A stretch of DNA of 39,930 nt from positions 1 through 39,930 of IMG/VR virus record IMGVR_UViG_3300046680_000106. One strand, 5' to 3'. The notes beneath the pieces were generated by a model. That model was given only the letters and a program-made list of their open reading frames with translations. It ran no database searches and had not been told where the DNA came from. Made by a program: the position numbers and the translations under genes. Of this stretch, positions 1,029 through 36,278 are shown one piece after another; the stretch's first letter is position 1, and every line of letters begins with the position of its first letter. The DNA is from a virus.

Positions 1029-3563
1029 ATGCCATTGGTGCCGGGCTTGCCCCTGAACATCCGCCAGACCAATGGCGGCGCCCCGCCGGCCATTTCTCCG
1101 GGCGTCTCCATCCAGCATGACGTTCACGAGCCTCCCGGCGTCCCCGAAATGGACGACGCCGGCGCTGTCATCAAGATCGAGCATGCCGACGGCAGCGTCA
1201 CTGTCTCGCTTGATGGCAAATCGCTGGTCGATAAGCCAGAGCAGAACACAGGCTGGTTCGCCAACCTGGCCGAAAAGCTTCCGGAAGACGATCTGAGCGG
1301 CATTGCCGACGATTTGCTGCGCGGGATCGACGAGGATCTGACCAGCCGCAACGACTGGATCGAAGAGCGCGCCCAGGGCATCAAGCTGCTCGGCCTCAAG
1401 ATCGAGATCCCCAATTTGCAGTCGGCGGCGGACGGCGCCCCGGTGGACGGCATGTCAAAAGTGCGGCATCCGCTGCTGCAGGAGGCGGTGCTCCGCTTTC
1501 AAGCCAACTGCCGCTCCGAAATGCTGCCCACCGACGGGCCGATCAAGATCCGCGATGACGGCAGCAACTCCAATCTCCCTCGTGACGCACTGGCGACCGC
1601 CCTTGAAAAAGACCTCAATCATTATCTCACTGTCACTGCGACCGAATACTATCCCGACACCGACAAGATGTTCCTTCTGCTGGGCTTTGGCGGCACGGCA
1701 TTCAAGAAAGTGTACAACTGCCCGCTGCGTAATCGGCCAGTTTCTGAATCGGTTGACGCCAACGACCTCATCGTCAACGACGCCGCCACCGACCTCGCCA
1801 ACGCCAAGCGTGTTACCCATCGATCTATGATGCGGCCCTCGACGGTCAGGCGCATGCAGATAATCGGCGCCTATCGCGACATCGACCTCGATACGCCCAA
1901 GCCGCAGACGCTCGACGCTGCGCAGGAGGCGGCTAAAAACCAGCAAGGGATCCAGACCAACACCACGAGGCCCGACGACCGTGACCGCGAGATCTACGAG
2001 TGCTATTGCGAACTCGATCTCAAAGGCTACGAGCACAAGTACAAAGGCAAGATTTCGGGCCTTGAGATCCCGTACCGGGTCACCATCGACCTCTCCAGCC
2101 GCAAAATCCTCTCGGTCGTCAGAAACTACGATGAGGACACGAAGGAGCTTCCTGAAGCTAGAGAGACATTCGTCAAATATACCTACGTACCGGGCCTCGG
2201 CTTCTACGATATCGGACTCCTTCATATATTGGGCAATACCACCAACGCTGTTACTGCTGCTTGGCGCGAGTTGCTGGACGCTGGAATGTTTAACAACTTT
2301 CCCGGCTTTCTCATGGCTGATACGGGAGCCAGACAGAACACGAATATCTTCCGCGTACCGCCGGGCGGCGGCGTCCTCGTCAAGACGGGCGGTCTTCCCA
2401 TCAATCAGGCGATTATGCCACTTCCTTACCAGCCGCCGTCTCAAGCTCTGATGGCCCTGGTCGATAACATGGTGCAGACCGGCCAGCGCAGCGGCGGCAC
2501 CGCCGAACTGCCGGCCAACGAAGGCAAGGCCGAAATCCCCGTCGGCACCATCCTGGCGATGATCGAGCAGGCCCAGAAGGTGCTGAACAACGTCCACAAG
2601 CGCATGCACTCGGCGCAATCGCAGGAATTTCGCCTGCTGATACGCTGCTTCAAGGAGAACCCCAAGGCGTTCTGGCAGCGCAACAAGAAGCCGTCCGCGC
2701 CGTGGGACGAGCAGAACTTCCGCGCCGCGCTCGATCAGGCCGACCTGACCCCGCAGGCCGATCCGAATACGTCGAGCCATGGCCAGCGCGTGATGAAGAT
2801 CATGGCGCTCAAGCAGTTGCAGCAGCAAAACCCCAGTCTCTACGACCCCATCGCCATCGATACGGCGGCGCTGCAGGCGCTGGGCTGGAACAATCCGCAG
2901 CAATTCATGGCGCCGCCGAGCGCCCAGGCCGCGCCTCCCCCGCAACTCATCCAGCAGCAGGCTGAGACGGCGGCGAAGACCCTCACCTCGCAGGCGGCGA
3001 TGGTCACCGCCCAGGCGCGGGCCAAGGAGGCCGGCGCCCGCGCCATGAACCTGATGGCGGAAGCCCAGACCATGGGCATGGACGAAACCGGCCAGATCCA
3101 GCAGGACACGCCGGTCGATCAGCACCGCGCCGAATCGGAGCGCATCAAGGCCAACGCGCATGCGCAGCAGGCCGACACTCACCAATCCGTCATGCAGGCC
3201 AAGTCCCAGGCCGACCTGCTGAACGCCCAGACGCGGGCCAAGGAAATCCAATTGAAGCTGGGCGAACTGTCGATGAAGGATTCGCACCACGACGACGAGC
3301 AGCGCCTCAAGGCGAGGCAGAGCGCCGTCGATATGGCCAAGCAGGTCATGGACACCCGTGCCGAAGACCAGCGCACCGCCGCCGAGATCCATCACGATCA
3401 CACCATACTGAGCCGCGAGCAGGAGCACGATCACGCGATCACCGAAAAGACCCACGCGCATGAGAAGGAATTGGAGGGCGTGAAGAAAGCGGCGGCTATC
3501 GCGGTCGCTAAAGCCAAACCGAAACCCAAGCCTGCAGCCGCCAAGCCAAAGGCCAAGAAATGA
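1029..3563 (+). CDS. portal protein (head-tail connector)
   Basis: 844 residues. The portal is the dodecameric ring at the unique capsid vertex through which DNA is packaged and ejected. The match is to large podovirus-type portals. After a variable 75-residue leader, residues 76-165 carry DDLxxRxDWIEERAQGIKLLGL, then the MSKVRHPLLQEAVLRFQAN block and EMLPTDGPIKI, all typical of this portal group. Residues about 630-820 are Gln/Ala/Glu-rich and strongly helical, like the barrel or coiled extension of P22-type portals. The extreme C-terminus is a Lys/Pro/Ala tail ending KPKAKK. The length is in the usual range for this group. Ribosome site AGAGAGGA lies at 1015-1022. The stop overlaps the next start (ATGA at 3560). 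No terminase is visible upstream, so it must lie outside the window. Confidence 0.88.
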   Translation: MPLVPGLPLNIRQTNGGAPPAISPGVSIQHDVHEPPGVPEMDDAGAVIKIEHADGSVTVSLDGKSLVDKPEQNTGWFANLAEKLPEDDLSGIADDLLRGIDEDLTSRNDWIEERAQGIKLLGLKIEIPNLQSAADGAPVDGMSKVRHPLLQEAVLRFQANCRSEMLPTDGPIKIRDDGSNSNLPRDALATALEKDLNHYLTVTATEYYPDTDKMFLLLGFGGTAFKKVYNCPLRNRPVSESVDANDLIVNDAATDLANAKRVTHRSMMRPSTVRRMQIIGAYRDIDLDTPKPQTLDAAQEAAKNQQGIQTNTTRPDDRDREIYECYCELDLKGYEHKYKGKISGLEIPYRVTIDLSSRKILSVVRNYDEDTKELPEARETFVKYTYVPGLGFYDIGLLHILGNTTNAVTAAWRELLDAGMFNNFPGFLMADTGARQNTNIFRVPPGGGVLVKTGGLPINQAIMPLPYQPPSQALMALVDNMVQTGQRSGGTAELPANEGKAEIPVGTILAMIEQAQKVLNNVHKRMHSAQSQEFRLLIRCFKENPKAFWQRNKKPSAPWDEQNFRAALDQADLTPQADPNTSSHGQRVMKIMALKQLQQQNPSLYDPIAIDTAALQALGWNNPQQFMAPPSAQAAPPPQLIQQQAETAAKTLTSQAAMVTAQARAKEAGARAMNLMAEAQTMGMDETGQIQQDTPVDQHRAESERIKANAHAQQADTHQSVMQAKSQADLLNAQTRAKEIQLKLGELSMKDSHHDDEQRLKARQSAVDMAKQVMDTRAEDQRTAAEIHHDHTILSREQEHDHAITEKTHAHEKELEGVKKAAAIAVAKAKPKPKPAAAKPKAKK

Positions 3564-5776
3564 ACGAGCGCGCGAAAGCCCTTGGCTTCGATCCGTCGCA
3601 GACGTGGTTTCACGGCTCAACTAAGGATCTGCCGGCTTTCGCCGCCAAGCGCGCTCCGCGCAGCGAGCAAATGGGCCTGGAAGGCGTTCACCTTGCGCAA
3701 AATCCGGATTTTGCCTCCCATTACGCCGAAGGGCCTGGCGGCAACGTCACGCCAGTTCATGTGCGCGGCAATATTCTCGACGCCACCCAGCTTATCCCCG
3801 AAGGCGGCGAGCATCACGCCATTCTCGATAAGCTGCTGAAGGGAACAGGCCGCAAGCCATACTGGAACTCTGATGAGCAGGGGCGTCGATTCGCCCCGCC
3901 GCTTCAGGGTCATATCGACGCCGTCAGCCCGCAAAAGGCCAAGCGCGTCATCCAGGAACACGGCTACGACGGCGTCAAATACGATGCTCGATACGGATCA
4001 TTGCAGCCTGGAGGCCGCAGCGCGAGCATTTCAAACAAAAGCCCCGCAGTGGTGATGTTCGACCCATCGAATATCCGGGCCAGGACTGCACAATTCGACC
4101 CCCAGCAAGCAGGGAGCGCGGAACTAATGGCATCGAGAGGCGGTAAGGCGATCCACTCTGCGCTCCTGACGGCCAAGAGCCTTTATGACAAGCTGCCGCA
4201 TGTCGTCGGCGGCGGGGCGCCGATGGCCAAGGGCGGCGCTGCGCTGGCGCCGATTCCCCAGATCATCATGCCGGGCGATCACCCGGCCCGCATCGACACC
4301 CGGCTGGCGACCGGGGCCAAGCCGCTCGATCTGGGGCCAGGGCCGCGCACCGTCAACATGGCTGCGTTGCGGGCGACGCCGGCGCTGTTCGACAAGAACG
4401 TCGATATCCTGCGGCACTACCCGAATGTTTCGAAAAGGGCGGCGAAGCTGTCGAACCCGGATATGGCCGAGCATTTCATCAATCACGTCAAGGACAACCT
4501 GCTGTGGCTGCACGATCAGGTGCCCAACGAAACCCGGCAGCGGTCCAAATTGTGGTACGACGGCGCCAACAAGCTGGCCAAGGAGTGGGCGCAAAAATAC
4601 GGCGTCTCGGAGGCGTCCGCCGCCGGCGCGCTGGCCGCGCTGTCGCCGCAGAAGGACTGGTTTCAGAACGTGTCGCTGGCCGAGCGCGTCCTGCATGCGA
4701 TGAAGGGGCGCGGCAATAACGCATATCATGGTGAAACCTTTTCGCCTGAAATGGAGGGCACCTATCGCGGCCTGGACAAGCTGGCCACCGAGAAGAACGA
4801 GCCAATCTTCCAGGCGATCAGGGGCAAGTCGCTGGGCGACATCGACGACATGAAGCACATTCCCGGCGACGAGCGCGCGGTCATGAAGGCGCTGTGGATC
4901 CGGATGCACGATCAGACCCACGGCGATCCCGGCTACAAGATCGCCACGCCGGAAGGTCATTTTGGCGAGGTCGCCCGGAACGCCGACGGATCGCCATCGA
5001 GGGCGGGCTGGGGTTCGCTGGGCGAAATCGGCAAGGCGGTGCAGGCCATCGAGAGCAATGGCGATCCGACCTTCATGAACCGCCTGATGGGCGAGCGCCA
5101 CAAGGTTCGCAATTTCTACAATAACATCCTCGATCCCAACTCCCAGCACGGCGACGTCACCATCGACACCCATGCGGTCGCCGCCGGCCTGCTGCGCGCG
5201 CTGTCGGGCAATTCGCTTGAGGTGGCGCACAATTTCAGCAACTACGCCGGCAAGGGCGTTCCCGGCGCCGGCGGCTCCAACGCCACCGGCGTGAACGGAA
5301 CCTATCCGCTCTACGCCGACGCCTATCGCCAAGCCGCCAAAGAGCGCGGTATACTGCCGCGCGAAATGCAATCGATTACGTGGGAGGCGATCAGAGGATT
5401 GTTCCCCGACACCTTCAAAACTGATAAAAACAACGCCCATATCGACAGCATCTGGAACGACTACAAGAACGGAAAGAAGGGAATCGACGATGTCCGCAAA
5501 GAAATCCACGACTTCGCGGGGGGCATCCGGCCACCGGAGTGGCACGACACCTCTGGAACGCCTGATGCACCGGTTCGGGGTGCCAGTGGACCGGGACTCG
5601 TACCTGGCCCTGGATCACGCGGGCCAGCCCCCCAAGGAATTATCGGCGGAACAGGAAATGGACCTCCCGGAGCACCTGCGCCGCAAGCACCCCGGCAGTC
5701 GGGGCTGATCCTGCCGCCAGGTTATGCCTGCGGCGGCATGATCGACAAAGCATTGGCCGCGACACGGCCCCGGTAA
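3560..5776 (+). CDS. polyvalent protein: ART-like N-terminus plus conserved phage domain
   Basis: 738 residues. Residues 10-175 look like an ADP-ribosyltransferase-type domain of phage polyvalent proteins: WFHGSTKDLPAF near the start (His18), GVHLAQNPDFASHYA (Tyr55), VHVRGNILD, HGYDGVKYDA and a final VVMFDPSNIR strand. The Glu normally found just before that last strand is not evident (the stretch reads NKSPAVVMF), so activity is doubtful. Residues about 275-650 form a second helical conserved domain (VDILRHYPNVSKRA, WYDGANKLAKEWAQKYGVS, ALAALSPQKDW) that I recall, unchecked, as DUF7178. A Gly/Pro linker leads to the C-terminal tail YACGGMIDKALAATRPR. That tail resembles the end of the 34170-36278 product. 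It follows the portal with a 4-nt overlap. Polyvalent proteins are often carried in virions and injected; that is inference here. Confidence 0.72.
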   Translation: MNERAKALGFDPSQTWFHGSTKDLPAFAAKRAPRSEQMGLEGVHLAQNPDFASHYAEGPGGNVTPVHVRGNILDATQLIPEGGEHHAILDKLLKGTGRKPYWNSDEQGRRFAPPLQGHIDAVSPQKAKRVIQEHGYDGVKYDARYGSLQPGGRSASISNKSPAVVMFDPSNIRARTAQFDPQQAGSAELMASRGGKAIHSALLTAKSLYDKLPHVVGGGAPMAKGGAALAPIPQIIMPGDHPARIDTRLATGAKPLDLGPGPRTVNMAALRATPALFDKNVDILRHYPNVSKRAAKLSNPDMAEHFINHVKDNLLWLHDQVPNETRQRSKLWYDGANKLAKEWAQKYGVSEASAAGALAALSPQKDWFQNVSLAERVLHAMKGRGNNAYHGETFSPEMEGTYRGLDKLATEKNEPIFQAIRGKSLGDIDDMKHIPGDERAVMKALWIRMHDQTHGDPGYKIATPEGHFGEVARNADGSPSRAGWGSLGEIGKAVQAIESNGDPTFMNRLMGERHKVRNFYNNILDPNSQHGDVTIDTHAVAAGLLRALSGNSLEVAHNFSNYAGKGVPGAGGSNATGVNGTYPLYADAYRQAAKERGILPREMQSITWEAIRGLFPDTFKTDKNNAHIDSIWNDYKNGKKGIDDVRKEIHDFAGGIRPPEWHDTSGTPDAPVRGASGPGLVPGPGSRGPAPQGIIGGTGNGPPGAPAPQAPRQSGLILPPGYACGGMIDKALAATRPR

Positions 5777-5811
5777 CCTGATACGGTGATTTAGCTAGAA
5801 GGATGACGCCG

Positions 5812-6066
5812 ATGTGTTTCTCGCTCGCCTGGCTTGAGAATTTGCTCATTTGGGTTGTCATCGTCGGCGCCCTGATCGCCATCCTCCAGCTTTTCGTGCC
5901 TTGGGTGCTGGCCCAAGTCGGGGATCTGGGCGGCGCCGTCGGCGTCATCCTGCAAATCGTCAAAATTATCGTCTGGGCGGTGATCGTGATCTTCGTGATC
6001 TATGTTGTGTTCGATCTGATTCAGTGCCTGATTGGCTCCGGTGGCTTGAAGCTACCCAAGTCATAA
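5812..6066 (+). CDS. small two-pass membrane protein
   Basis: 84 residues (MCFSLAWLENLLIW onward), almost entirely hydrophobic. One membrane helix spans about residues 8-35 and a second about 44-72, with an IGSGG turn and short KLPKS tail. ATG 5803 in the same frame directly abuts AGAAGG (5797-5802), leaving no spacer. ATG 5812 leaves 9 nt and is preferred. I recall similar small integral membrane proteins from rhizobial (pro)phages, without known function. A holin-like role is possible from size and topology, but its place among structural genes, far from the endolysin, does not support that strongly. Confidence 0.75.
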   Translation: MCFSLAWLENLLIWVVIVGALIAILQLFVPWVLAQVGDLGGAVGVILQIVKIIVWAVIVIFVIYVVFDLIQCLIGSGGLKLPKS

Positions 6067-6108
6067 CCCCACGGCTCCGGTAAGCCGTAAACCGAGAGGA
6101 CCATATCG

Positions 6109-7389
6109 ATGTCCGAACAAGCCAAAACATACCGCGCCGCGATGCGGGCTAAGGCCGAGCGTTTGGGGACGGCCACGTCCGCAGGCAAAGTCGATTGCAG
6201 CGATTTCGGCCCTGTCGAGCAGGATCCAATTCACGCCGATAAGCAGGAGGGCCTGCGACCCGTCTCCAGGCGAGCGTATAAGAGCGGCGGCGCCGTCATG
6301 GGCGCGGCGGCTTTCAAGCATGGCGGGCGCGTTGCGCGCAAGGGCGGGGGCGCGGCCAACGCCAGTTCCATGTTCGGCAACGCCATCTACAATAGCGACG
6401 TCAAGGAAGCCAACGAGAAGCGCGACGGCTACGTCAAGCGTGAAGGCGGCATGAAGAAAGGCGGCAGGACCGGCAGATTTGGCGGCGGCGGCAATGGCCC
6501 GATTGGCGGCCAGACTGCTGTCAACAATCAGGCGGCTGCGAACGCCATGCAGGCCATCGACGCCAACAATAGAGTCGGCGGCAACGTGCCGACCAACGCC
6601 TTGGGCGTTTCGGCGGGCAGTGGCAGCGGCCATATGTTCGGCATGGCGAAGGGCGGTCACCCGCACAAGGCCGAAGACGAGAAATGCGCCAAGAAGCTGG
6701 TCGCACACCACAAGGCCGACGGCGGACCGATCCCGTCGCCGGCGGACGCCGGTCCGCCTCCCGGCCCGCCCGAAGCTTCACCTTCCGGAACGGACCAGGA
6801 TTCGGGCAAGCTGGATGCGCTGATCAGCGCGCTGGAGCACCAGCATAAAAAGTCGAAGAAGCACAAGGCGCCGCCGATGCCGCCTCCGGGTGCTGATGAT
6901 GAGGCCGGCCCGCCCCCCGATGAGCAGGCCGGCCCGCCTCCAGGCCTCGGCGCCAAGCGCGGCGGCAAGGCCCGCAAGGAAGGCGGCGGCGTCTACGCCC
7001 CCAACATCAAGCTCGGCCCGCGCGACGGTTACGCCAAGGGCGGCAAGACCAAGGGCAGGACGAACATCAATATTGTCATTGGGCAACCTGGCGGCGCCTC
7101 TCCTCCCGATGCTGGCGGACCTCCTCCCCTGGCCGGGCCGCCGCCGGGGCCGGGGGCGGTTCCTGTGCCGCCTCCCGCGCCCCCGCCCCCGCCGATGGCT
7201 GGACCTCCAGGCATGCAGGGACCGCCGGGCGCGCCCCCGCCGATGCCGATGCCGCCTCCGGGCGGGCCGATGGGCCGCAAGCATGGCGGTCGAGCCTATC
7301 CGATTGACGATGGATCGGGCGGCGGCAAAGGCCGTCTGCAGAAGATCAGGTCTTATGGCCTGGTTCCAGCCAAAGGAGGTGGGAAGTGA
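6109..7389 (+). CDS. low-complexity Gly/Lys/Pro-rich virion-associated protein
   Basis: 426 residues of strongly biased composition. The N-terminal 45 residues look ordered (MSEQAKTYRAAMRAKAERLG). The rest is built from glycine-pair motifs next to basic residues: AYKSGGAVMG, FKHGGRVARKGGGA, GMKKGGRTGRF, MAKGGHPHKA, GYAKGGKTKGRTNINIVIG and RKHGGRAYP. Two long Pro/Gly stretches (about residues 225-290 and 345-410) resemble disordered linkers. HGGRVARKGGGA closely matches HGGRAARKSGGA in the 12758-13000 product. Such basic, disordered proteins occur among virion genes of related phages; DNA or capsid interaction is a reasonable guess but not shown. GAGAGGA lies about 9 nt before ATG. A 6-bp hairpin (6071-6076/6083-6088) lies just upstream. 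Confidence 0.7.
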   Translation: MSEQAKTYRAAMRAKAERLGTATSAGKVDCSDFGPVEQDPIHADKQEGLRPVSRRAYKSGGAVMGAAAFKHGGRVARKGGGAANASSMFGNAIYNSDVKEANEKRDGYVKREGGMKKGGRTGRFGGGGNGPIGGQTAVNNQAAANAMQAIDANNRVGGNVPTNALGVSAGSGSGHMFGMAKGGHPHKAEDEKCAKKLVAHHKADGGPIPSPADAGPPPGPPEASPSGTDQDSGKLDALISALEHQHKKSKKHKAPPMPPPGADDEAGPPPDEQAGPPPGLGAKRGGKARKEGGGVYAPNIKLGPRDGYAKGGKTKGRTNINIVIGQPGGASPPDAGGPPPLAGPPPGPGAVPVPPPAPPPPPMAGPPGMQGPPGAPPPMPMPPPGGPMGRKHGGRAYPIDDGSGGGKGRLQKIRSYGLVPAKGGGK

Positions 7390-7655: not shown

Positions 7656-7673
7656 TCAAATAGGAGAAAGTTG

Positions 7674-8363: not shown

Positions 8364-8370
8364 AAACACA

Positions 8371-8407: not shown

Positions 8408-8468
8408 ATACCCTCGGTCGTCACCTTGAGCTTGTCTTACATCAGGAACAAATCAGGTTCAAGCCCTA

Positions 8469-8681: not shown

Positions 8682-8687
8682 ATCCTA

Positions 8688-8718: not shown

Positions 8719-8738
8719 GCGTGTCACAGGAGACGCGC

Positions 8739-9125
8739 ATGGCCTTTGCCGAAATGCAACATGAACTGGAACCTCGCCTGAAGCTTCTGGATGAGCTTGG
8801 TGATCTGTCAGGGGTCGAACTTTTCCACAATCAGTTGCTGGTCGCGGTCTACATCAGGCCCGAAAAGACCAAGAGCGGCCTGTTCCTGGCCCAGCAGACC
8901 CTCAACGAGGATCGTTTCCAGTCCAAACTGGGCCTCGTCGTCAAGAAAGGCCCCCAGGCTTTCATCAGCGGCGGCGAATGGCAGTTCCCTGACATCGAAC
9001 TGCATGACTGGATCCTGTTTCGCCCCTCGGATGGCTGGAACATCACCGTCAGCGGCGTTCTGTGCCGCATCCTGACCGATACGGCTGTCAAGGGGCGCAT
9101 CAGCAGCCCCGATCTCATTTGGTGA
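8739..9125 (+). CDS. GroES-like (Cpn10) phage co-chaperonin
   Basis: 128 residues from ATG 8739, with AGGAGA at 8728-8733 and 5-nt spacing; an in-frame GTG at 8721 is a less likely start. It resembles divergent GroES/Cpn10. A beta strand (VELFHNQLLVAVYIRP, about residues 26-41) is followed by SGLFLAQQTL (46-55) in the position of the GroEL-binding mobile loop, whose usual Ile-Val-Leu triad is here Leu-Phe-Leu. Then come KLGLVVKKGP and a WILFRPSDGW barrel strand. The C-terminus (DTAVKGRISSPDLIW) is unlike host GroES. Cpn10 caps the GroEL chamber. A phage version beside scaffold and capsid genes suggests folding of the major capsid protein, as T4 gp31 does for gp23. Family call by motif only. 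Confidence 0.72.
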   Translation: MAFAEMQHELEPRLKLLDELGDLSGVELFHNQLLVAVYIRPEKTKSGLFLAQQTLNEDRFQSKLGLVVKKGPQAFISGGEWQFPDIELHDWILFRPSDGWNITVSGVLCRILTDTAVKGRISSPDLIW

Positions 9126-9130
9126 GCGAC

Positions 9131-11343: not shown

Positions 11344-12258
11344 ATGGCCGTCAATCTTAGCGCCATCAAAGACCTTCTGCTCCCCGGCCTCCGTGGGATC
11401 GAGGGCAAGTACGAGATGATCCCGTCTCAGTACGACAAGATCTTTACCAAGCACAACTCAAAGATGGCGCTGGAGCGCACGGCTGAGATGCGCTACCTGG
11501 GCCTCGCCGCCCTCAAGACTGAAGGCGGGCAGACCCAGTTCGACAACGGCGCCGGCGAGCGTTACGTCTACAACCAGGAGCACGTCGAGATTGGCCTGGG
11601 ATATGCGATGACCCGCAAGGCCATCGACGACAACCTCTACAAGACCCAGTTCCATCCCTCCAACCTCGGCCTGATCGAATCCTTCCAGCAAACGAAGGAA
11701 ATCTACGGCGCCAACGTCCTGAATACGGCCCAGGCCTATAATCAGACAATCGGCGGCGACGGCAAGGCGCTCTGCGCGGTCGATCATCCCATCGACAGCG
11801 GCCTCGTCGGCAACACGCCGGCGGTGCAAGTCGATCTCGGTGAATCGACCCTGCTCAACGCCATGATCGGCGTCCGGACCAACTTCAAGGACCAGGCGGG
11901 TTTGAAAGTTTTCGCTCGCGCGCGGAAGCTTATCATCCCGCCGCAATTGGAACCGGTAGCAATTCGTCTTCTCAAGACAGAATTGCGGCCAGGCACGGCA
12001 GACAACGACGTCAATGCCATCCTCTCGACTTCGGGTGGACTGTCTGAAAGCTTCATGGTCAATGACTTCTTGACCTCGCCCTTCGCCTGGTTCCTTCTCA
12101 CAAATATCGATGGTCTTTCCTTCATGGAAAGAATAAAGTTCGAAACGGATATGCAAGTCGATTTTGTGACCGATAACCTGCTCGTGAAAGGTTACGAGCG
12201 GTATTCGTTCGGTTACTACAACTGGCGAGCAGTCTACGGCAACTTCCCGACCTCGTAA
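11344..12258 (+). CDS. major capsid protein
   Basis: 304 residues, ribosome site AAAGGAG. It resembles the Mu gpT-like/HK97-fold major head subunit group. Features are an N-terminal helix (IKDLLLPGLRGIEGKYE), then YDKIFTKHNSKMALERTAEMRYLGLAALK, and HVEIGLGYAMTRKAIDDNLY. The middle reads GKALCAVDHPIDSG, typical of gpT-like heads. Later come FARARKLIIPPQLEPVAIRLLK (the A-domain strand) and a C-terminal ESFMVNDFLTSPFAWFLLTNIDG with KGYERYSFGYYNWRAVYG. It forms the hexamers and pentamers of the capsid. Length is normal for the group and no protease gene is visible next to it. Gene order scaffold-decoration-capsid is as expected. Confidence 0.85.
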   Translation: MAVNLSAIKDLLLPGLRGIEGKYEMIPSQYDKIFTKHNSKMALERTAEMRYLGLAALKTEGGQTQFDNGAGERYVYNQEHVEIGLGYAMTRKAIDDNLYKTQFHPSNLGLIESFQQTKEIYGANVLNTAQAYNQTIGGDGKALCAVDHPIDSGLVGNTPAVQVDLGESTLLNAMIGVRTNFKDQAGLKVFARARKLIIPPQLEPVAIRLLKTELRPGTADNDVNAILSTSGGLSESFMVNDFLTSPFAWFLLTNIDGLSFMERIKFETDMQVDFVTDNLLVKGYERYSFGYYNWRAVYGNFPTS

Positions 12259-12282
12259 TACTGGCTCAGAAGGAGAAAGCAC

Positions 12283-12747
12283 ATGGGTGCGACACACTTC
12301 ACGGGGCCGGTTATCGTAGGCGACCCCGCTGTTTCTCAGGGTGAGCTTGAATTGTATCAAGACACCATGATTACGTTTGCGCAGACGCCTGCGTCTTCGA
12401 CGCTCAACTTCCCGCTCAACATTCCGGCTGGCTCCACCATCATGGGGTTTGAAGTCGCCTTGCTGACATCGTGGGTTGGCCCCGCCACGGCGGTGCTCAC
12501 TATCGGCACCGACACCACTACGAACAAGGCCTCGCTCGTCGGCGCGACCGATCTGAAGGCGGCGGCGCCGTTCCCGGCCATGACGCAGTCGGCGGCGAAC
12601 ATCGCCGCCCAGCGCGGATACACGCTGCTTGGCGTTCCCGCGCCAAATCCGTCGGCGCTCAACATCCAGATCGTCACGGGCGCGGGCGCTCCGAGTGCCG
12701 GCGCCGCGCTGGTGTCCGTCCACTACATCCAAAATCCGTCACCTTGA
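12283..12747 (+). CDS. small structural protein
   Basis: 154 residues, ribosome site AAGGAGA. Beta-rich and low in charge. Hydrophobic strands such as STIMGFEVALLTSW and TAVLTIGTDTTTNK alternate with Ala/Gly/Ser segments, and the end reads GAALVSVHYIQNP. This composition is usual for surface or head-tail-joining virion proteins. No specific family recognised. It lies directly between the major capsid gene and other small virion genes, so a head-associated role is likely. Confidence 0.7.
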   Translation: MGATHFTGPVIVGDPAVSQGELELYQDTMITFAQTPASSTLNFPLNIPAGSTIMGFEVALLTSWVGPATAVLTIGTDTTTNKASLVGATDLKAAAPFPAMTQSAANIAAQRGYTLLGVPAPNPSALNIQIVTGAGAPSAGAALVSVHYIQNPSP

Positions 12748-12757
12748 GGGGGCTTCG

Positions 12758-13000
12758 ATGGGCAAGTTTGAGAAGGGCAAGAAGCCTGCTTTCGGCGGCG
12801 GCAACGAGGATGTTAAGGAAGAGGCTGAAGAGAAGGGCGGCAAGAAAAAGCGTGTAGGCGGGCCGGTTGGCGCGTCTGCTCACTCGCACGGTGGTCGAGC
12901 GGCTCGCAAGAGCGGCGGCGCCTGCGAGAGCCACCTGTTCTCGTCAGCCGCTGCGGGTACGCATGCGCCTGGGCGGAAGCTGATGTCGAAGAAGGATTGA
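12758..13000 (+). CDS. small basic Gly/Lys-rich virion-type protein
   Basis: 80 residues from ATG 12758; upstream GAGGGGG is the ribosome site. The first half is very Lys/Glu/Gly-rich (MGKFEKGKKPAFGGGNEDV, then EEKGGKKKR). The second half has HSHGGRAARKSGGACESHLFS and ends in KKD. HGGRAARKSGGA nearly repeats HGGRVARKGGGA of the 6109-7389 protein, although the two share no other clear similarity. Probably disordered and cationic. Binding to DNA or to the capsid interior is a guess. An upstream in-frame extension overlaps the previous gene and is unlikely to be used. Confidence 0.68.
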   Translation: MGKFEKGKKPAFGGGNEDVKEEAEEKGGKKKRVGGPVGASAHSHGGRAARKSGGACESHLFSSAAAGTHAPGRKLMSKKD

Positions 13001-13004
13001 CGCC

Positions 13005-26745: not shown

Positions 26746-27435
26746 ATGCCACTGATCAAATCCGGATCCAAGGAGGCCGTCAGCCAGAATATCAGGACGG
26801 AGATCGGCGCCGGCAAGCCGCAGAAACAGGCGGTCGCCATCGCCCTCGATGTCGCGAGGCGCGCACGGGACGCCGGCGGCGGCATGCCGACGCTCTCAAA
26901 ACTGGACACGCCGCCTGATGTTCCGAGCACGGTTCACGCGCACCTGTCGGCCAAGGTCCACACCGGCCCGATCCACAGCGCGGTCGCGGGCCGCACCGAT
27001 CACCTGCCCGTCCATGTTCCGAGCGGCAGCTATGTCATTCCCGCCGACGTCGTCAGCGGCATGGGCGAAGGAAACACTAATGCCGGATTCAAGAACATCA
27101 AGCGGATGTTTGGTGGCCTGCCTCGTGGGGCCGGCGAGCAACCCTATGATCATAAAGGCGGACCTTATGGCGCTGGGTCTGCTCCCTATAACATCGATCC
27201 CAGCAAGCCCTATGGCGAACCGCTACCTAGTGGGCATGCTGCTGGCGGGAAAACCGGTAAGGATGTCAAGGTCGTTGTGGCAGGCGGCGAATACACGCTG
27301 ACGCCTGAAGAGGTGATGGCGGCGGGCGACGGCGACCTGGATCGCGGCCACCGCGTTCTCGATGATTTTGTCAAACAAATGCGCGGCCACATCGTCAAGA
27401 CGATGTCAAAGCTGCCTGGACCGAAGCGAGACTAG
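26746..27435 (+). CDS. phage protein with duplicated VxVxxGxYxLxPxxV element
   Basis: 229 residues. The start (MPLIKSGSKEAVSQNIRTEI, then GKPQKQAVAIALDVAR) is a motif seen in many phage structural proteins; it forms one charged helix. Two related elements follow. Residues 88-122 read PVHVPSGSYVIPADVVSGMG and EGNTNAGFKNIKRM. Residues 174-212 read VKVVVAGGEYTLTPEEVMAA and GDGDLDRGHRVLDD. Both give a beta pair, a P-x-D/E-V turn, and a Gly-rich loop with a helix, so an internal duplication is likely. A linker with GHAAGGKTGKD separates them and carries the glycine-pair motif found in other virion genes. Role unknown; a virion part is likely from context. Confidence 0.68.
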   Translation: MPLIKSGSKEAVSQNIRTEIGAGKPQKQAVAIALDVARRARDAGGGMPTLSKLDTPPDVPSTVHAHLSAKVHTGPIHSAVAGRTDHLPVHVPSGSYVIPADVVSGMGEGNTNAGFKNIKRMFGGLPRGAGEQPYDHKGGPYGAGSAPYNIDPSKPYGEPLPSGHAAGGKTGKDVKVVVAGGEYTLTPEEVMAAGDGDLDRGHRVLDDFVKQMRGHIVKTMSKLPGPKRD

Positions 27436-27943: not shown

Positions 27944-27948
27944 GCGTC

Positions 27949-30900
27949 ATGGGCGGCAAGACACAGCAGGCTTCGTCTCAGGTCACGATACCGCCGGAAG
28001 TCCTGGCGCGCTATAACGCGGTCAACGCCAATGCGCAGCAAGTGGCGCAAACGCCCTTCCAGCAGTATTCGAGCGATCCGAACGCCTTCGTCGCGCCGAT
28101 GACCACGGCCCAGAACATGGGCCTCCAACAGACCGCGAACTATGCCAACGCCGCGCAGCCCGGCTTGCAGACGGCGATGGGCATGACGCAAGGCGCGATG
28201 GGGTCAGCGAATCCGTGGGATCTGAACTCCGATCAGATCAACAAATACATGAACCCGTACACTCAGAACGTCACCAATCAAATGGGCGCTCTGATGAACC
28301 AGCAGGCCCAGACGGCGCAGTCGGGCCAACTGGGCAACGCCATCAAGACCGGCGCCTTTGGCGGCGACCGCAGCGGCATTGTGGCGGCGAACCTTCAGCA
28401 GCAGAATGCGCTGGCCTATGGCAACGCCATGGCGCCGGTGCTCCAGCAGGGCTACAACACGGCGCTCCAGACCGCCACGGGGCAGCAGGCGCTCGATCTG
28501 CAAGCGCAGCAGGCCAACCTGGCGCGGCAGATGCAGGGTGCGGGCCAGTACGGCCAATTGGCCGGCGCGCAGCAGCAGGCGGGCCTCGCCGGCGCGCAGG
28601 CGATGATGGGCGCGGGCCAGGTGCAGCAGCAGACCCAGCAAGCGGGCCTCACTTCGCTCTACAATCAATTCCAGCAGCAGCAGTCTTATCCGTTCCAGAC
28701 GGCGCAATTCATGGCGAATATTGCGGAGGGCACCGGTTCGCTGTCGGGCCAGACGACGAACTCCACCCAGCAGGCGCCGTTCTTCTCCGACCGCAAGTTG
28801 AAGGAAAACATCAAGCGAATCGGCACCGCCAAGAACGGTCTGCCGATCCACAGCTTCAACTACAAGGATGATCCGGAAAAGCTCACCCGCCTCGGCTTCA
28901 TGGCCGACGAGGTCGAGAAGAAACATCCGGAGGCGGTGGGCCTGGCCGGCGGCTATAAGACCGTCGATCACGAGAAGGCGATGAAGAGCGCCGGCGGCAG
29001 CGTCACTGACTTCGACCAGGGTCGAGCCTATGATCGCGGCGGCTTCGACCTCGGCGGCGCTGCCAGCACCTATGACCCGTCCTGGCAGTCTGTCGCCCAG
29101 CGGCACATGGCGGGGTTGCAGGGTCAGCAGCAGGGCAGCGGCAGCACTTTGTACGGCGGCAAGAGCCGTCACGTTCCAACGACGTCTGGCGCTCGCTACA
29201 GCCTGCCGAATGCGCCTGGCATGCCGGCGGCAAAGCCGTCAGGTCTGAACCAGGCTGTCGGAACGGCGCAGGCGACCGTGGGCCTCGGCCAATCGCTTGG
29301 CGACGCCTATAATAAGTACACCGGCAAGGATCAGCCTGCCGCCACGACCACCGCGCCTGCTGCTGGCGGTGCGCCTGCCACGCCTGCCGCGCCTGTGGTG
29401 GCGAACAAAGCGCCTGGCACACCCGATCAACCCGACGTCACATATTTGCGCCGTGGCGGGTTGGCCACCGGCGGCAGCGAGCCTGTCGTCATCGCTGCGG
29501 CGCCGCCTGCCGCCGTCGCTTCATCTCAGGGCCTCGCGGCGCCTGGCGTTGCCGATGTCGTTACGCCGACGGCTCAGTACCAAGAAGGATTGGGCAAGGC
29601 CCAAGATGCGCAAGTGCGCGCGAACGACATTCAGCAGGCTGACCGCGACGCAGCAGCGAAGGCTGGCATGTCGTTCAAGCCCGACTGGGACAATGGTTTC
29701 CTGGCGCAAGCCGATCTGGCCCGTTCGATGGGCGTCTATGGATCGCTGAACGGCTATCACGACCCAACCCATGGCGGGTCGTATCTCGGTTTCGCGGATG
29801 GCGGCGCGGCCAGCACGGATGAATACAAAGCCCCCGATCCGAACGCCACTCAGGACACGACGAAGCAAAACATTCCGGACGTGCATTCAACCTACAAGTT
29901 GCCCGATCCGCCCAAGCCGCCAGGCGGCAGTGGAAAGAGCGGAGCCGGCCAGGCGCTGGGCGCCGCCAAATCGCTTATGGGCCTCGCTTCCCTCATTCCC
30001 GGCGTCGGCGCCGTCACTGCTCCCCTTGGCGCCGTAATGGGCGCGGGCGAGGCGTTGGCCGGCGCCAGCGGCGGTCTGATGGTCGCTGGCCGGCGCCGCA
30101 AGCGCAAGGGCCTGGCCGCTGGCGGTCAGGGCGAGGGCGTCGATTACATGAGCGAAGGTGCGCAGGGGCGTACATACGATGACCCAGAGCAGCAAACTGC
30201 CCTTAATCTGGATCGCATTAAGGATCTTGAGGGCGAGAACAGTCAAACCGGTCTGGGCGGTAAGGGCAATAGCGTAGACAACATGAGCGAGGCCAATCAA
30301 GGTCGCATGGCCCCGAATGATACAGAAGCGCAAGACGCATGGCGATTGGAGCATATTCCGCGCGAAGATTTGCACAAGGAAGTACCGCCGGAAAGGTTGG
30401 CAAAACTATTCCCGCCGACGCAGGAAACGCCGCCTCCAGGTGTGCTTGGCCCGTGGTCGAGCCAATCCGCGTCTGCTTCTGTTCCTAATTCGGGCGAGCG
30501 GCTGCTCAACACGCAGCCAACTACGCGCGATGCCCAGACTGGCGCGGCGCCGGTCGAAGGGTCTGGTTTCGACAAGCCGCTCAATCTCGGAAGCGGGCAG
30601 CTATATCAAAGGCCACCGGATGTTCCGGCCACGCCTGAACAGGCTGCGGCGGCGAATGCGTTGCGCAGATCTCCTGAAGCTGCCGCGCTTGCAGGCGCGG
30701 AGGAAGCGCGTCAAGGCAAGGCGGCGGATGCTGTAGCACGGGAGAAGGATTATCAGGCGCGTCATGCGCAATCGTGGACGGATTCGCTGACGGGCGTGAA
30801 GCCTGATCTGGCGCCTGAAACACCTGAAGAAGAGAAGGCCCGCTTCGCCCGCTACGATTCGACCACGCCGACGACACGCGAGGAAGCTACTGCTGGTCCG

Positions 30901-32556
30901 ATCACGCAGCCTGGTCTTAGGCCGTCAGACGTCGCCGCGCTCGCTGACAAGCCGGCAAATCTCGCGACCGCCACGGCTCCTGCTGCGGTTCAGGCTGAAG
31001 TCCCCGCAACTCACGAAGCGGGCCTGGTGCTTCCGCCCGAAGCCAGAGGCGCGCCGCCTCCAGGGGTGACCGACGCCCGCACGTTCCCGCTGTCGCCGGC
31101 GCCGCTTGGCGGCGATGTCGCGCAGCCTGCGGCTCCTGCCCCCGTTGTGAAGCCTGCGGCCCCTGCGGCTCCCGCAAGGGTGGCGCCGACGCCTGTGGCG
31201 CATCCCGCCGCCGGCGCTGGCGTTGCGCCTGCCGGCGCAGCGGCCAGGGCGCCGACCGACGCCAACGGCAATCCCATCGAGCAGTTCTTTGGGGGCCTCG
31301 GTCGCGGTGTGGGCGATTTCTTCCACGGCGTCGGCAACATCTTCACCGGCGGCGCCCAGCAAGTCGGCAACGTCGTCAACAGCGCGGGCCAGACGGTCAA
31401 CAGGGCCGGCCAGGCTGTCGGTAGCGCGGTCAGCAATACAGCCCAGGCTTTCGGCAATGAGATTGGCGGGCGCTACAACGAACTGATGAACGGTTCGCCA
31501 AAGATGATGTCGCCTGGTGGAAGATTTAACGCCCAAGGCGTCGATCCGCGCCTGCTCAATAACATCACGGAAGCTACGAGAGGTCTGCCACAAGGTTGGC
31601 ATGCGCAACTCGAATCCGGCTTCCGCAATAACGATCCGCGCCAGCACGGCAAGGGCGCGGCGGTCGATGTCGCGCTCTACAACGAGAAGGGCGAGAGGCT
31701 TGCTAATTACCAAGACCCGACCACCTTCCGCGCCTACGAGAAATTTGCACAGGATTTCAGGGCGGCGCAGCAGCACAACAATCCCGAACTGGACAAGGCT
31801 ACGCGCTGGGGCGGCTACTTCAGCGGCAAGGCGGTCCAGCCTGGTCAAAAATACGATGCCGAGCATCCCTACGGCGCCGTCGATCTGATGCACTTCGACC
31901 TCGGCGGGCGGGAAGGCCTCGGCATGCTTGGCGGCTCGTGGGAAGGCGGCATGACAGCGAAGCAGCATGCGCTGTTTCCCGGCGCCACGTCTGTCGGCAT
32001 GGGTCAGCGCCCGTCTGGCGGATATCCGACGGCAGTCGCTACCGGCGCCGATGGCTCCAGGACCAGCGCGACGGGGCAGATCCAGCCGGGCTATCACAAT
32101 GGCGTTCAGGGCATCCTCTCGCAGGAGGAATCCTTCCGCGACAAGCCGTACTGGGACAAATCTGCCGGCGGTGGGGGCGCGTGGGCTATTGGCTACGGCA
32201 CTCACCAGATCGCGGGCGCCGACGGCAAGATGCGCCCCGTGCAGCAGGGCGATACCATCACGCCACAAGGCGCCGCGCAGAATATGGTGCAGCGTCTGCA
32301 AACGGAGTTTCTGCCGAGAGCGGTGCAGAAAGTCGGGGGCCTCGATACCTGGCGCGCTCTGCCGCGCAATGTCCGCGACGGCCTCGGCTCGACCATTTGG
32401 AACTACGGCAACCTGCCTGATCGGGTCGCTTTCGTGATCCGGAATGGCGGCGGTCCCAACGAGATTGCGAACGCGGTGTTGCAACTCGGCGGCAGGACGG
32501 AGGCGGCCCGCGAGCGCCGCGCGCGTGAAGCGGCGCACATTCGTGGTGGAGGTTGA
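27949..32556 (+). CDS. giant virion protein: S74 + M15-like peptidase + GH24-like lysozyme
   Basis: 1535 residues; GGAGTAGG precedes ATG 27949. Residues 1-275 are Gln/Ala-rich helices as in ejection proteins. Residues 279-350 are an S74-like chaperone domain (SDRKLKENIKRIGTAKNGLP, Ser280-Asp281), in the middle rather than at the C-terminus. Residues 670-725 hold a hydrophobic segment ending in RRRKRKG. Near 1110-1180 are amphipathic repeats (VNSAGQTVNRAGQAVGSAV). Residues 1210-1325 look like an M15/VanY-type peptidase, with His1233 and Asp1240 in HGKGAAVD and His1315 in MHFDLGG as possible zinc ligands. Residues 1385-1530 look like a GH24 lysozyme (Glu1394, Asp1403, AIGYGT; the usual Thr position is Ala1413). 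It would cut peptidoglycan during DNA entry. The glycine-pair motif occurs four times. Confidence 0.8.
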   Translation: MGGKTQQASSQVTIPPEVLARYNAVNANAQQVAQTPFQQYSSDPNAFVAPMTTAQNMGLQQTANYANAAQPGLQTAMGMTQGAMGSANPWDLNSDQINKYMNPYTQNVTNQMGALMNQQAQTAQSGQLGNAIKTGAFGGDRSGIVAANLQQQNALAYGNAMAPVLQQGYNTALQTATGQQALDLQAQQANLARQMQGAGQYGQLAGAQQQAGLAGAQAMMGAGQVQQQTQQAGLTSLYNQFQQQQSYPFQTAQFMANIAEGTGSLSGQTTNSTQQAPFFSDRKLKENIKRIGTAKNGLPIHSFNYKDDPEKLTRLGFMADEVEKKHPEAVGLAGGYKTVDHEKAMKSAGGSVTDFDQGRAYDRGGFDLGGAASTYDPSWQSVAQRHMAGLQGQQQGSGSTLYGGKSRHVPTTSGARYSLPNAPGMPAAKPSGLNQAVGTAQATVGLGQSLGDAYNKYTGKDQPAATTTAPAAGGAPATPAAPVVANKAPGTPDQPDVTYLRRGGLATGGSEPVVIAAAPPAAVASSQGLAAPGVADVVTPTAQYQEGLGKAQDAQVRANDIQQADRDAAAKAGMSFKPDWDNGFLAQADLARSMGVYGSLNGYHDPTHGGSYLGFADGGAASTDEYKAPDPNATQDTTKQNIPDVHSTYKLPDPPKPPGGSGKSGAGQALGAAKSLMGLASLIPGVGAVTAPLGAVMGAGEALAGASGGLMVAGRRRKRKGLAAGGQGEGVDYMSEGAQGRTYDDPEQQTALNLDRIKDLEGENSQTGLGGKGNSVDNMSEANQGRMAPNDTEAQDAWRLEHIPREDLHKEVPPERLAKLFPPTQETPPPGVLGPWSSQSASASVPNSGERLLNTQPTTRDAQTGAAPVEGSGFDKPLNLGSGQLYQRPPDVPATPEQAAAANALRRSPEAAALAGAEEARQGKAADAVAREKDYQARHAQSWTDSLTGVKPDLAPETPEEEKARFARYDSTTPTTREEATAGPITQPGLRPSDVAALADKPANLATATAPAAVQAEVPATHEAGLVLPPEARGAPPPGVTDARTFPLSPAPLGGDVAQPAAPAPVVKPAAPAAPARVAPTPVAHPAAGAGVAPAGAAARAPTDANGNPIEQFFGGLGRGVGDFFHGVGNIFTGGAQQVGNVVNSAGQTVNRAGQAVGSAVSNTAQAFGNEIGGRYNELMNGSPKMMSPGGRFNAQGVDPRLLNNITEATRGLPQGWHAQLESGFRNNDPRQHGKGAAVDVALYNEKGERLANYQDPTTFRAYEKFAQDFRAAQQHNNPELDKATRWGGYFSGKAVQPGQKYDAEHPYGAVDLMHFDLGGREGLGMLGGSWEGGMTAKQHALFPGATSVGMGQRPSGGYPTAVATGADGSRTSATGQIQPGYHNGVQGILSQEESFRDKPYWDKSAGGGGAWAIGYGTHQIAGADGKMRPVQQGDTITPQGAAQNMVQRLQTEFLPRAVQKVGGLDTWRALPRNVRDGLGSTIWNYGNLPDRVAFVIRNGGGPNEIANAVLQLGGRTEAARERRAREAAHIRGGG

Positions 32557-32558
32557 CA

Positions 32559-34163: not shown

Positions 34164-34169
34164 AACACC

Positions 34170-36278
34170 ATGGCGCAGGCGTCAGAATACAGCATCGATC
34201 CTGTGGCGCCGGCTCCCGTTGACGCTCCTGCGAATGTGACTGCGACTGCTCCGAAACCTGGCGGCAACACTGCCGCTGACTACGGCGACGATCCTGTCGA
34301 TTCCTCGAAATCGGGCGCGAATGCAAAGGTTGCGACGCCCCAGCCGCCGCCCGATTACGCCAATATGTCTGGTTGGGATGTCGCCAAAGGCACCGCCAAA
34401 GCTCTTATTCCGTCAGCAGCCGCGAAAGTGGGCGACGTAGTTTCAGGCTTGGGCAGCGCGGCCAAGCATGTCTATGACACGCATGAGCTTCCCGGCAAAG
34501 ATCTGGTTCAAGGCGCCGATGCATGGGTTAACAGGAAGCTTTCGGACTATGCTCCCGAAACCATGAAGATGGTCAATAAGGCGATAGGCTACACGCCGCC
34601 TTCAGACGCGGAGTACGAGGCGAAGGTGAAGCCGGCGACCGAAGCCGCTTCTGCTGCTTACCACAGCACCGTGGACCCCTTCACATCGTGGCCTAAGTTT
34701 GCTGAAAAGATGACCACAGATCCTATAGATCCGCTGCTCAACGCCGCCAGCGTGGCGATGCCGGTTCTGCGCGTGGCCAGAACTGGAGCCGAAATGGCTG
34801 GCCTAGCCAAGGGCGCTGGAGCCGCCGCCGATCTCACCAAGGTGACGACCCCCGGCGAGCTAGGCCAGGCTGTCCACGGCGCCGCGTCTGAGGCGCTCGC
34901 CGCGAAAGATCTCGCTTATAAGAAAGCTTTCAGCCACACCGCTACGTTTGATCCTGCTGCGGCTCAACCCATCATGAGCGAAGTGCAGGCCAACCTTGCG
35001 AAGACGCCGAACTTCCCAGGCTTGAACCGTTTCGACAAGAACCCGCACCTCGCGGACGCCAAGGCGGCGTATGACCACCTGGACAACAGTCTCAAGACCA
35101 TAGATCCGAATGACTTCACCATGCCGAATATGGAGAACATCCGGCGTGACCTCCAGCAGAAGGCGATGGAGACAGAGAGCGGCCCCGCTCGATACATGAT
35201 CGGCCAGATGATCGACGGGATCGACAGCGGCATCAGCAAGGTGGCGACGAAGCCGGGAATGTACGCGGGCGACGGCGCTGCGGTGGCGAGCGATATGGCC
35301 AACGCCCGTAAGCTGAACGTCGATTGGATCAAGCAATTCGGCAATGAAGCGCCATCGAGCTTCAAGCCCACGATGAACACGCTCCCGAAAGACTTGGCGA
35401 CGGCTGATGACAGCCATTTCCACGCCGCCGGCACGGGCCTCGGCAATGCGCTGATGAACGAGGGCAAGGGCGGCGTTCTCTACAATCACCTCAAGCAATT
35501 TGTGCCGAAGGAAACGCTCGACAATTACCTGCGTCAGCCGATGCTGGCGGGCGATTCGGCAACCGTGATGAAGCGGCTGAACACGCCCATCGCGCAAAAC
35601 GTCTTTGGCTCCGATCTCGACAGGGCCAAGCGGCTGGCCGCTTCGCAGGACACCAAGACGCTCATGGGCAAGGTGGCCCCGGTCGCTAAGTGGGGATTGG
35701 AGGCAGCGGCGCCTTTCGTTGGCCACGCGCTGCTTCCGGGTGGCGGCGGCGCCTTGGCTGGAGCAGCAGTGAGTGCTGCCGGGGAGCTTGCGAGCAGGAA
35801 GTTTTTCCCGCACGGCGTCGGCAACAGAGCGCCGCTCTTTGAGCGTTACGCGGGCAAGCCGGCGCCTGCGGTGGCCCTGCCAGATAAAGGGTTGCGCGCT
35901 GCGCTCCCGCTGGTGAGGCCAAGCAGTTACACGCAATTCCTCAAGCCTTCGACCTACAAGGGCGGGAGGCTTCCCGTTGCAGCCATCGCCGGCCATCGCC
36001 CGCCTGTCGGCGCCACCGCCACGGCGCCAGGAGAACCGACCGCAGACACGGCGCCGAGCGTCAATCCGCTGGCGGGGATGTCCTATGGCTACGACCCCAC
36101 CGGGCAAAACCGATACGCCAGCGGCGGCGCTGTGAAAGGCCACCAGCATCTGGTAGATCGGCTATTCGCCGCGCATGAGCGCGCCAAGCGCGAGGAAAAG
36201 GCGCATACTGCGGGCATCCTGCACCAGCCTGACGAGGCGGTCGCAAAAGCCCTTCATGTCGCGCAGGCGGCTATCTGA
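34170..36278 (+). CDS. internal virion/ejection-type protein with GG tail
   Basis: 702 residues. A disordered, Pro/Ala-rich leader (1-60) precedes helical regions. Amphipathic or hydrophobic stretches lie near 60-95 (WDVAKGTAKALIPSAAAK), 188-220 (PLLNAASVAMPVLRVART) and 507-545 (KWGLEAAAPFVGHALLPGG). The centre (280-470) is helical and charged. The C-terminus after a Pro/Thr linker reads NRYASGGAVKGHQHLVDRLF and then EKAHTAGILHQPDEAVAKAL. This end resembles the tail of the ART-like protein at 3560-5776. No named family. It fits an ejection-complex or capsid-core protein. A 6-nt gap separates it from the previous gene. Confidence 0.65.
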   Translation: MAQASEYSIDPVAPAPVDAPANVTATAPKPGGNTAADYGDDPVDSSKSGANAKVATPQPPPDYANMSGWDVAKGTAKALIPSAAAKVGDVVSGLGSAAKHVYDTHELPGKDLVQGADAWVNRKLSDYAPETMKMVNKAIGYTPPSDAEYEAKVKPATEAASAAYHSTVDPFTSWPKFAEKMTTDPIDPLLNAASVAMPVLRVARTGAEMAGLAKGAGAAADLTKVTTPGELGQAVHGAASEALAAKDLAYKKAFSHTATFDPAAAQPIMSEVQANLAKTPNFPGLNRFDKNPHLADAKAAYDHLDNSLKTIDPNDFTMPNMENIRRDLQQKAMETESGPARYMIGQMIDGIDSGISKVATKPGMYAGDGAAVASDMANARKLNVDWIKQFGNEAPSSFKPTMNTLPKDLATADDSHFHAAGTGLGNALMNEGKGGVLYNHLKQFVPKETLDNYLRQPMLAGDSATVMKRLNTPIAQNVFGSDLDRAKRLAASQDTKTLMGKVAPVAKWGLEAAAPFVGHALLPGGGGALAGAAVSAAGELASRKFFPHGVGNRAPLFERYAGKPAPAVALPDKGLRAALPLVRPSSYTQFLKPSTYKGGRLPVAAIAGHRPPVGATATAPGEPTADTAPSVNPLAGMSYGYDPTGQNRYASGGAVKGHQHLVDRLFAAHERAKREEKAHTAGILHQPDEAVAKALHVAQAAI

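Follow-up and report, generated by a model that had tools for sequence, protein, structure and literature searches.

A glycine-pair core and a terminal tag on proteins of an uncultured phage group, with a possible role in head loading

Injected phage proteins need a way into the head. In the literature that we searched (full text, open-licence papers only), packaging signals are described only for the internal proteins of phage T4 and for DarB of phage P1, as far as the available parts of PMC3012670 and PMC9024508 go. In T4, diverse injected anti-defence proteins are united only by a short capsid-targeting sequence (CTS) (PMC3012670, in part). In P1, an N-terminal packaging signal brings the large injected defence protein DarB into the head, and 30 residues are enough to package a reporter (PMC9024508, in part). 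A similar arrangement is found in encapsulins, where different enzymes encoded beside the compartment gene carry a short C- or N-terminal cargo loading peptide, and such peptides were partly recognised through bioinformatics (PMC7355545, in part). Here, we consider a 39,930-base viral stretch, IMG/VR record IMGVR_UViG_3300046680_000106 (the window, with 40 genes counted), in which the portal gene is followed by a gene for an ART-like cargo protein ending in a short tag, and then by a gene for a basic protein, rich in glycine pairs (GG), that we call the hub. The terminal tag and the associated GG core are real, specific and widespread, and a dock for loading proteins into the head is their best, if unproven, reading. 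In many enzymes that are probably carried inside the particles of a large group of uncultured phages, the chain ends in a tag of this kind after a GG. Neither the tag nor the hub is described in the literature searched.

The terminal tag and its position

The first-pass annotation of the window had proposed that one GG tail motif recurs in six proteins, with an amphipathic helix after it in the cargo and ejection-type proteins. All the strings that it quoted are present in the genes that it named: YACGGMIDKALAATRPR is the C-terminal end of the cargo protein (3560..5776; all features given here are on the + strand), NRYASGGAVKGHQHLVDRLF lies close to the end of the ejection-type protein (34170..36278), AYKSGGAVMG and FKHGGRVARKGGGA are both within the hub (6109..7389), HGGRAARKSGGA and GHAAGGKTGKDVKVVV are within the products of 12758..13000 and 26746..27435, respectively, and FADGGAAST and LAAGGQG are within that of 27949..32556. 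A GG core is indeed common to all six families, but the proposed motif is really two merged elements, the second being a terminal 'AL' tag that occurs, among the six, only in the families of the cargo protein and of the ejection-type protein. For an amphipathic character of the helix there is no support: in a hydrophobic-moment test of seven tag peptides, 0.05 to 0.48 of the shuffles reach the observed value.

A typical terminal tag, found at protein ends, is GGSIVDRALMLTS. In the window cargo protein it takes the form YACGG-MIDKALAATRPR (5723..5773), is kept with changes in the relatives L012, L014 and L016, and coincides with a helix (residues 727-733) in the AlphaFold2 (AF2) model; the diverged relatives L036 and L038 have the tails FKRGGRATNIVERALAITRRK and FAYGGDVISRALQLTQQ. 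A search with the cargo protein supplied the best 80 of 449 relatives in viral contigs, where L001-L018 are near copies of the window protein (87-100% identity) and L019-L080 are diverged; L002-L018 were excluded from the first-set motif counts and from the DUF7178 comparison given below. The first set comprised 1202 complete proteins of L001, L019-L081 and eight phage records. The strict pattern [IV][DVEIK][RK]ALx[LIVMA][TASVI] occurs 16 times in this set, always at an end (at most 30 residues from the N-terminus or 45 from the C-terminus). The 269,489 interior residues contain no match, and the mirror pattern matches once; near-duplicates such as L020 and L021 were retained. The second set was taken from 86 hub loci and, after removal of exact copies of earlier proteins and of mutual near-duplicates, contained 824 complete proteins. 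Here, 25 of 32 strict tags are terminal (4 N-terminal and 21 C-terminal), and the mirror again matches once.

The tag is also concentrated in one part of the genome. Counted from the hub, which could be located in 75 of the 86 loci, tagged co-oriented open reading frames (ORFs) make up 31/73 at position -1, 8/59 at -2 and 2/52 at -3, while there are 0/92 at -4 to -6 and 1/316 at +1 to +6. When all hub-bearing loci were used, including overlapping ones, with ORFs made distinct by their last 25 residues, the portal was found in 83 of 108. The 100 distinct, complete portal-hub ORFs of at least 100 residues include 60 with a looser C-terminal tag, 27 with an N-terminal tag, 67 with either and 66 with a loose GG core; the corresponding figures for the 1820 other ORFs, a set that contains the hubs and the tagged family of the ejection-type protein, are 49 (C-terminal tag), 18 (N-terminal tag) and 212 (loose core). 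The mirror of the C-terminal pattern is found in 5 portal-hub ORFs, and random interior windows of the same proteins match at 3.1%. A GG is present in the 40 residues preceding the tag in 52 of the 60 tagged ORFs, compared with an interior rate of 30%. Since the looser patterns were written after the tails had been viewed, the portal-hub count is not a blind test; the locus ORFs were called mechanically (longest non-overlapping), and the controls include spurious ORFs. Overall, the terminal tag belongs mainly to proteins of the portal-hub interval and to the ejection-type protein.

A DNA pattern for GG-x-IVDRAL gave 16 matches in 2.9 million viral contigs, 15 of which start 16-23 residues before a stop codon. 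The hub gene is on the same stretch in 13 of these 15, while in the other two the contig stops 13 and 231 bases later; the sixteenth match (L191) looks like chance. In many loci, a separate portal-hub gene closes with a tail of a second type, VHKALEIIHHLLTR; in G006 the start of this gene coincides with the end of the portal gene. Separate portal-hub proteins of ~250-660 aa in L117, L118, L127, G006 and others end like KPDSLHKALEIIHHLLTR, often with a GG before. Judged by sequence, we take such tails to be a second version of the terminal tag.

The ejection-type protein (702 aa) matches neither PHROG nor Pfam entries and owes its label to gene position only. Its full-length sequence found matches in 6 of 13 hub-bearing records, all confined to residues 624-702. 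This sole matched region includes the C-terminal module (36114..36275), in which YASGGAV is followed by helices ending DEAVAKALHVAQAAI. The VDR after the GG, originally regarded as the tag, is not kept in relatives; the family-conserved tag is instead the extreme end, DEAVAKALHVAQAAI in the window and TExLLxxPDEAVAKALxVANxxI in the family. Mean pair identity is 0.58 over the last 12 residues vs 0.07-0.27 in the blocks before residue 660, and all 11 aligned sequences keep the GG pair (residues 652-653). The low-confidence structural model (mean predicted local distance difference test score, pLDDT, 43.7) has coil before residue 659 and, after the GG, helices at 659-683 and 688-701.

The GG core and the hub

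Within the window, there are nine copies of [YF][AK]xGG and two of the mirror form GGx[AK][YF], whereas shuffles that keep every GG in place have a mean of 2.9, and 4/500 of them reach nine. On the window alone, this excess over shuffled proteins is suggestive only. Three of the nine cores lie outside the genes listed in the first-pass annotation, two in 36289-37314 and one in 18320-22564. The core is also in excess in larger samples: 126 cores vs 30 mirror matches and a shuffle mean of 27.6 in 1309 distinct proteins of L001, L019-L081 and the eight phage records, and 162 vs 40 in the 824 proteins of the hub loci. In 11 genomes including the window (G008 excluded for missing landmarks, G010 not included, opposite-strand ORFs inside the module dropped), the structural module holds 71 cores in 103,147 residues (mirror 18), and the remainder 4 in 66,046 (mirror 4), so that the core is not equally frequent in non-virion genes. 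Either comparison, with shuffled proteins or with non-virion genes, could have refuted the first-pass proposal, and neither did. By eye, 67 of these 71 cores fall in the six families named originally, mostly those of the cargo protein, the hub, 27949 and 26746, while the small basic protein and the ejection-type family contribute a single core apiece; the other four are in two stabilization-protein homologues, one tail-fibre-like gene and one other ORF. Outside this group, T7 has one core and Mu none. For phage phiM5, the record notes particle proteomics; these data have no bearing on the tag, since the phage has cores at chance level only (2, equal to the mirror count) and its three internal virion proteins, inspected by eye, end without one.

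The window cargo protein has an internal core, MAKGGAA (4223..4243; residues 222-228), N-terminal to its DUF7178 domain, and L036 and L038 hold up to four copies. The product of 12758..13000 is a small basic protein with GG core repeats (K+R 17, D+E 9), and similar small proteins were seen by eye in G003 and L068. Judging from window genes and relatives, 26746..27435 encodes a virion-cluster protein with HAAGG ahead of a C-terminal part kept in relatives (LDxFVKxMR..KTLxxLPGPK), and 27949..32556 a large protein of internal-virion type in which the cores, FADGG and LAAGG, are internal; it has a Peptidase_S74 endosialidase-chaperone domain (Pfam) and no terminal tag.

One alternative is that the cores are hinges or linker caps for threading long multidomain virion proteins through the portal, and that the terminal helix is a local folding cap, neither having a binding partner. 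In the AF2 model, the cores of the ART-like protein indeed lie in low-confidence stretches on both sides of the folded domain, and an ordinary tape measure protein, H of lambda, contains FATGGFTGTGG and YATGGYVGTPG. However, the specificity is high: the extended core [YFM][AK]xGGx[VI] is found 113 times in the hub-locus proteins and its mirror never, much of this coming from hub repeats and one copy being part of the search query itself. Moreover, a hinge would have no need of an aromatic residue at a set position or of one common tag on unlike domains beside a single gene. We therefore consider hinges unlikely.

The hub is disordered-looking and has many GG modules, a NINI stretch, a Pro-rich part and a GGGKGRLQK tail. 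Across the family, the start KVDSSDWTPPEPLNADVKTGMRPISRRAFKxGGKV is followed by many [YFR][KA]xGG[KR] repeats, a KGKTNINI stretch, a Pro-rich part and a GAGGGxGRLEK tail. As a full alignment of nine hubs was too divergent, an N-terminal alignment of five served as the query; it found 558 relatives in viral contigs, the best 80 of which were used, and 6 in genome contigs. Two hub queries matched one of 50,697 phage records, a metagenomic assembly, and found no cultured member. The window hub and five of six scanned hubs match no PHROG, and the sixth matches one over a short stretch: residues 319-363 of the L020 hub (11509-13083) correspond to phrog_16028 (50 profile positions, unknown function). 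In 10 genomes, the hub has a net charge of +23 (the window value) to +53, with 13-19% Gly, 8-14% Pro and 10-14% ILVFWY. This Gly/Pro-rich polycationic composition, together with the repeated YK/FK-x-GG-K/R, would also suit a protamine-like or condensate-forming protein of the head, the GG cores being weak client stickers in a protein-DNA phase with no one-to-one docking. Such a phase would leave the cargo tag, which is well conserved and not highly charged, unexplained, and seems to us quite unlikely.

The presence of the hub and of the motif (here a GG core or a terminal tag) is coupled. Among 62 DUF7178 proteins (L019-L080), both are present in 21 and both absent in 37; put differently, 21 of the 22 proteins with a hub in the locus have the motif (the exception is L042), against 3 of the 40 without. 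In these three (L019, L033 and L041) the contig ends at most 1.7 kb from the gene. What the motif is coupled to is the hub, a gene of the phage, and not the function of the cargo, which argues against a tag that acts after ejection and holds injected proteins in the cell envelope, attached to one another or to a host component. From their domains or gene positions, one would expect the tagged families to be injected, and the role of polyvalent proteins would agree with such anchoring (PMC5512222, in the part available), but we find it improbable.

Cargo domains and neighbouring genes

The cargo gene sits among virion genes, between hub and portal, the latter of SU10 type (1029..3563; PF23899 2.5e-17, phrog_1216 1.6e-25) and immediately 5' of it. 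The protein (738 aa) is of DUF7178 polyvalent type (Pfam, 1.3e-28) and has an ART-PolyVal match (5.3e-6) that at 27.7 bits is under the cut-off of 31.2; ART-PolyVal is clear in the tagged proteins L172, L116 and L147. What precedes the tag is variable. L009-L014 and L018 (88-95% identity over the shared part) match the window protein only from residue 196 and are thus without the ART part, as seen in the complete proteins of L012 and L014 (544 aa), where residues 1-195 are gone and the DUF7178 core and the tail are retained. For 50 distinct tails, the ~155 residues preceding the tag form 16 clusters at E 1e-3; since the singletons L125, L138, L143, L153 and L173 group together in whole-body clustering, 16 kinds is an upper bound. 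Whole-body clustering itself gave just six single-linkage groups, because multidomain chains share pieces, and the pre-tag domain was clustered instead. Pfam recognised ART, InPase, DUF7178 or M15 peptidase domains in 6 of 19 tagged proteins scanned and nothing in 13. Both the loss of ART with retention of the tail and the variety of domains ahead of the tag (16 kinds at most) fit an exchangeable payload.

The AF2 model of the cargo protein has a confident DUF7178 core (~240-660). The internal core belongs to a low-confidence stretch (151-228), and the tail (664-738) has pLDDT <50 with one lone helix, the tag, separated from the folded core by a disordered linker of ~60 residues. Foldseek with this model returned no match at E <= 0.001, and the DUF7178 sequence profile no usable match in the PDB. 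DUF7178 (residues 302-665) may have a helix-hairpin-helix DNA-glycosylase-type fold, as its best structural matches are the queuosine-salvage DUF2419 protein 7ugk (Z 8.5, root-mean-square deviation 4.8, 232 aligned) and the archaeal 8-oxoguanine glycosylase AGOG 1xqo (Z 8.3, deviation 5.1, 203 aligned), with Z scores in a range that helical folds can reach by chance. K515 and D536 are almost invariant, and their spacing resembles that of the catalytic Lys/Asp of endonuclease III.

Many hub-less DUF7178 proteins (L043-L080) have another common tail, e.g. SSSVKRGRQARNSGAN, which, by its sequence, could be another lineage's own terminal tag. A separate observation concerns the 138-kb contig IMGVR_UViG_3300046559_000446 (L005, L010, L083, L087, L201, L207), where two related gene copies (~21.9-74.3 and 90.7-138.3 kb) are present. 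Among the matches listed, one copy is identical to the window proteins and the other 64-94% identical; the contig represents tandem prophages, a concatemer or an assembly join. Besides the portal and the tail and internal-protein cluster, landmarks of the window are a GroES-type co-chaperonin downstream of the hub (8721..9125; Pfam Cpn10 8.5e-5), also encoded by annotated SU10-portal relatives, and the major capsid protein (11344..12258; phrog_371 1.4e-11), with a weak match to a 'major head and protease' PHROG.

Head loading and known targeting systems

We give an even chance to the terminal element being a capsid-targeting (cargo-loading) tag. According to this proposal, exchangeable accessory enzymes encoded between portal and hub, as well as the ejection-type internal protein, would carry a short helix-like tag at the N-terminus, the C-terminus or both, in most cases preceded by the glycine pair with which a disordered linker closes. 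As the head assembles, this tag would attach its cargo to a fixed partner inside, and the docked cargo would be enclosed in the head and later ejected with the DNA. The likeliest partner might be the hub or whatever the hub binds (scaffold, portal or DNA); the hub's repeated F/Y-K-x-G-G-K/R modules, together with the GG cores of cargo and internal proteins, would make the contacts multivalent. The idea of a sorting or docking tag is favoured by an element that is specific, concentrated in the structural module, attached to different domains, located at protein ends and coupled to one neighbouring gene. The bare F/Y-A-x-G-G core of lambda H speaks against extending it to the core, which alone is not a dedicated cargo signal.

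Several other observations also weigh against head loading. Hub-bearing and hub-less DUF7178 groups appear to be different phage lineages, so the association is at the level of lineages and confounded. The hub itself has no terminal tag, which makes direct recognition by the hub a guess, and we found no hub-bearing phage with particle proteomics. The terminal placement has exceptions as well: 7 of the 32 strict tags of the hub-locus set are interior, and the loosest tag pattern shows a weaker excess there (N-terminal 23, C-terminal 41 and interior 51 vs mirror 7, 17 and 15). By our patterns, 33 of the 100 portal-hub ORFs have neither an N- nor a C-terminal tag; in L035, G008 and G012 there is a variant tail, VDAALALTRR, and in L030 and L163 none. 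At least 5 of the 16 GG-x-IVDRAL stretches (L150, L115, L187, L194, L197) come from contigs already in the sample. Finally, the ends of T4 IPII and IPIII bear no likeness to the tag by eye, and P1 DarB, DdrB, DarA, Ulx and DdrA have no [YFM][AK]xGG core and, by eye, no AL tag at their ends.

It is also conceivable that the GG pair is cut by a head-maturation or other protease, separating cargo domains or removing the tag, as the cores flank the folded domain in the AF2 model and head proteins of T4 and P1 undergo processing (PMC3012670, PMC9024508, both in part). However, Pfam found no head protease among the 19 window proteins scanned, and cleavage does not require a conserved terminal tag; we regard it as very improbable. 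That the tail, usually directly 5' of the hub start, is kept as a recombination site or other DNA signal is largely refuted by the tags that are N-terminal, lie two or three genes 5' of the hub or belong to the distant ejection-type family, and by 12 different DNA versions of a single tag type, in which third codon positions are the most variable (identity 0.63 vs 0.85 and 0.98 at the other positions), so that selection acts on the tag peptide.

If head loading is accepted, it is tempting to go one step further. More tentatively, and with rather less confidence than in head loading itself, we suggest a modular payload: the portal-hub interval might be a cargo island of freely exchanged enzymes with the same kind of address tag. 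The tag would be recognised by the disordered, repeat-rich hub, which would also connect the ejection proteins through aromatic-GG stickers. A recognisable tag would allow the likely injected payload of many uncultured phages to be listed from sequence alone and new anti-defence enzymes to be found by their tail, and loading could be tested by a simple fusion.

Tagged proteins resemble the phage polyvalent proteins of Iyer et al. (2017) in their ART-PolyVal, InPase and LPD23 domains and virion gene neighbourhood. The difference is that the available part of that source (PMC5512222) describes no common terminal tag, and neither 'C-terminal motif' nor 'terminal peptide' occurs in the paper. Lambda H has the same GG core but an end without the AL tag. 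Functionally, the tag would work like the T4 CTS, the P1 DarB signal and the encapsulin peptides, although by eye it does not belong by sequence with the signals of T4 or P1. The T4 signal is N-terminal (PMC9024508, in part), as is that of DarB, whereas the present tag is mostly C-terminal, after a GG, and coupled to the hub. A short terminal peptide on different domains would suit capsid targeting, with a location of the tagged proteins inside the head suggested by gene position only. The terminal peptide and the gene adjacency may recall encapsulins; however, the encapsulin peptide binds the shell lumen, while the gene adjacent here is the hub, not a shell, and the hub is a proposed partner. 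If the modular payload exists, it would be a phage counterpart of both encapsulin loading and the T4 CTS with a receptor class of its own, and adding the tail to a protein would lead to its packaging and delivery.

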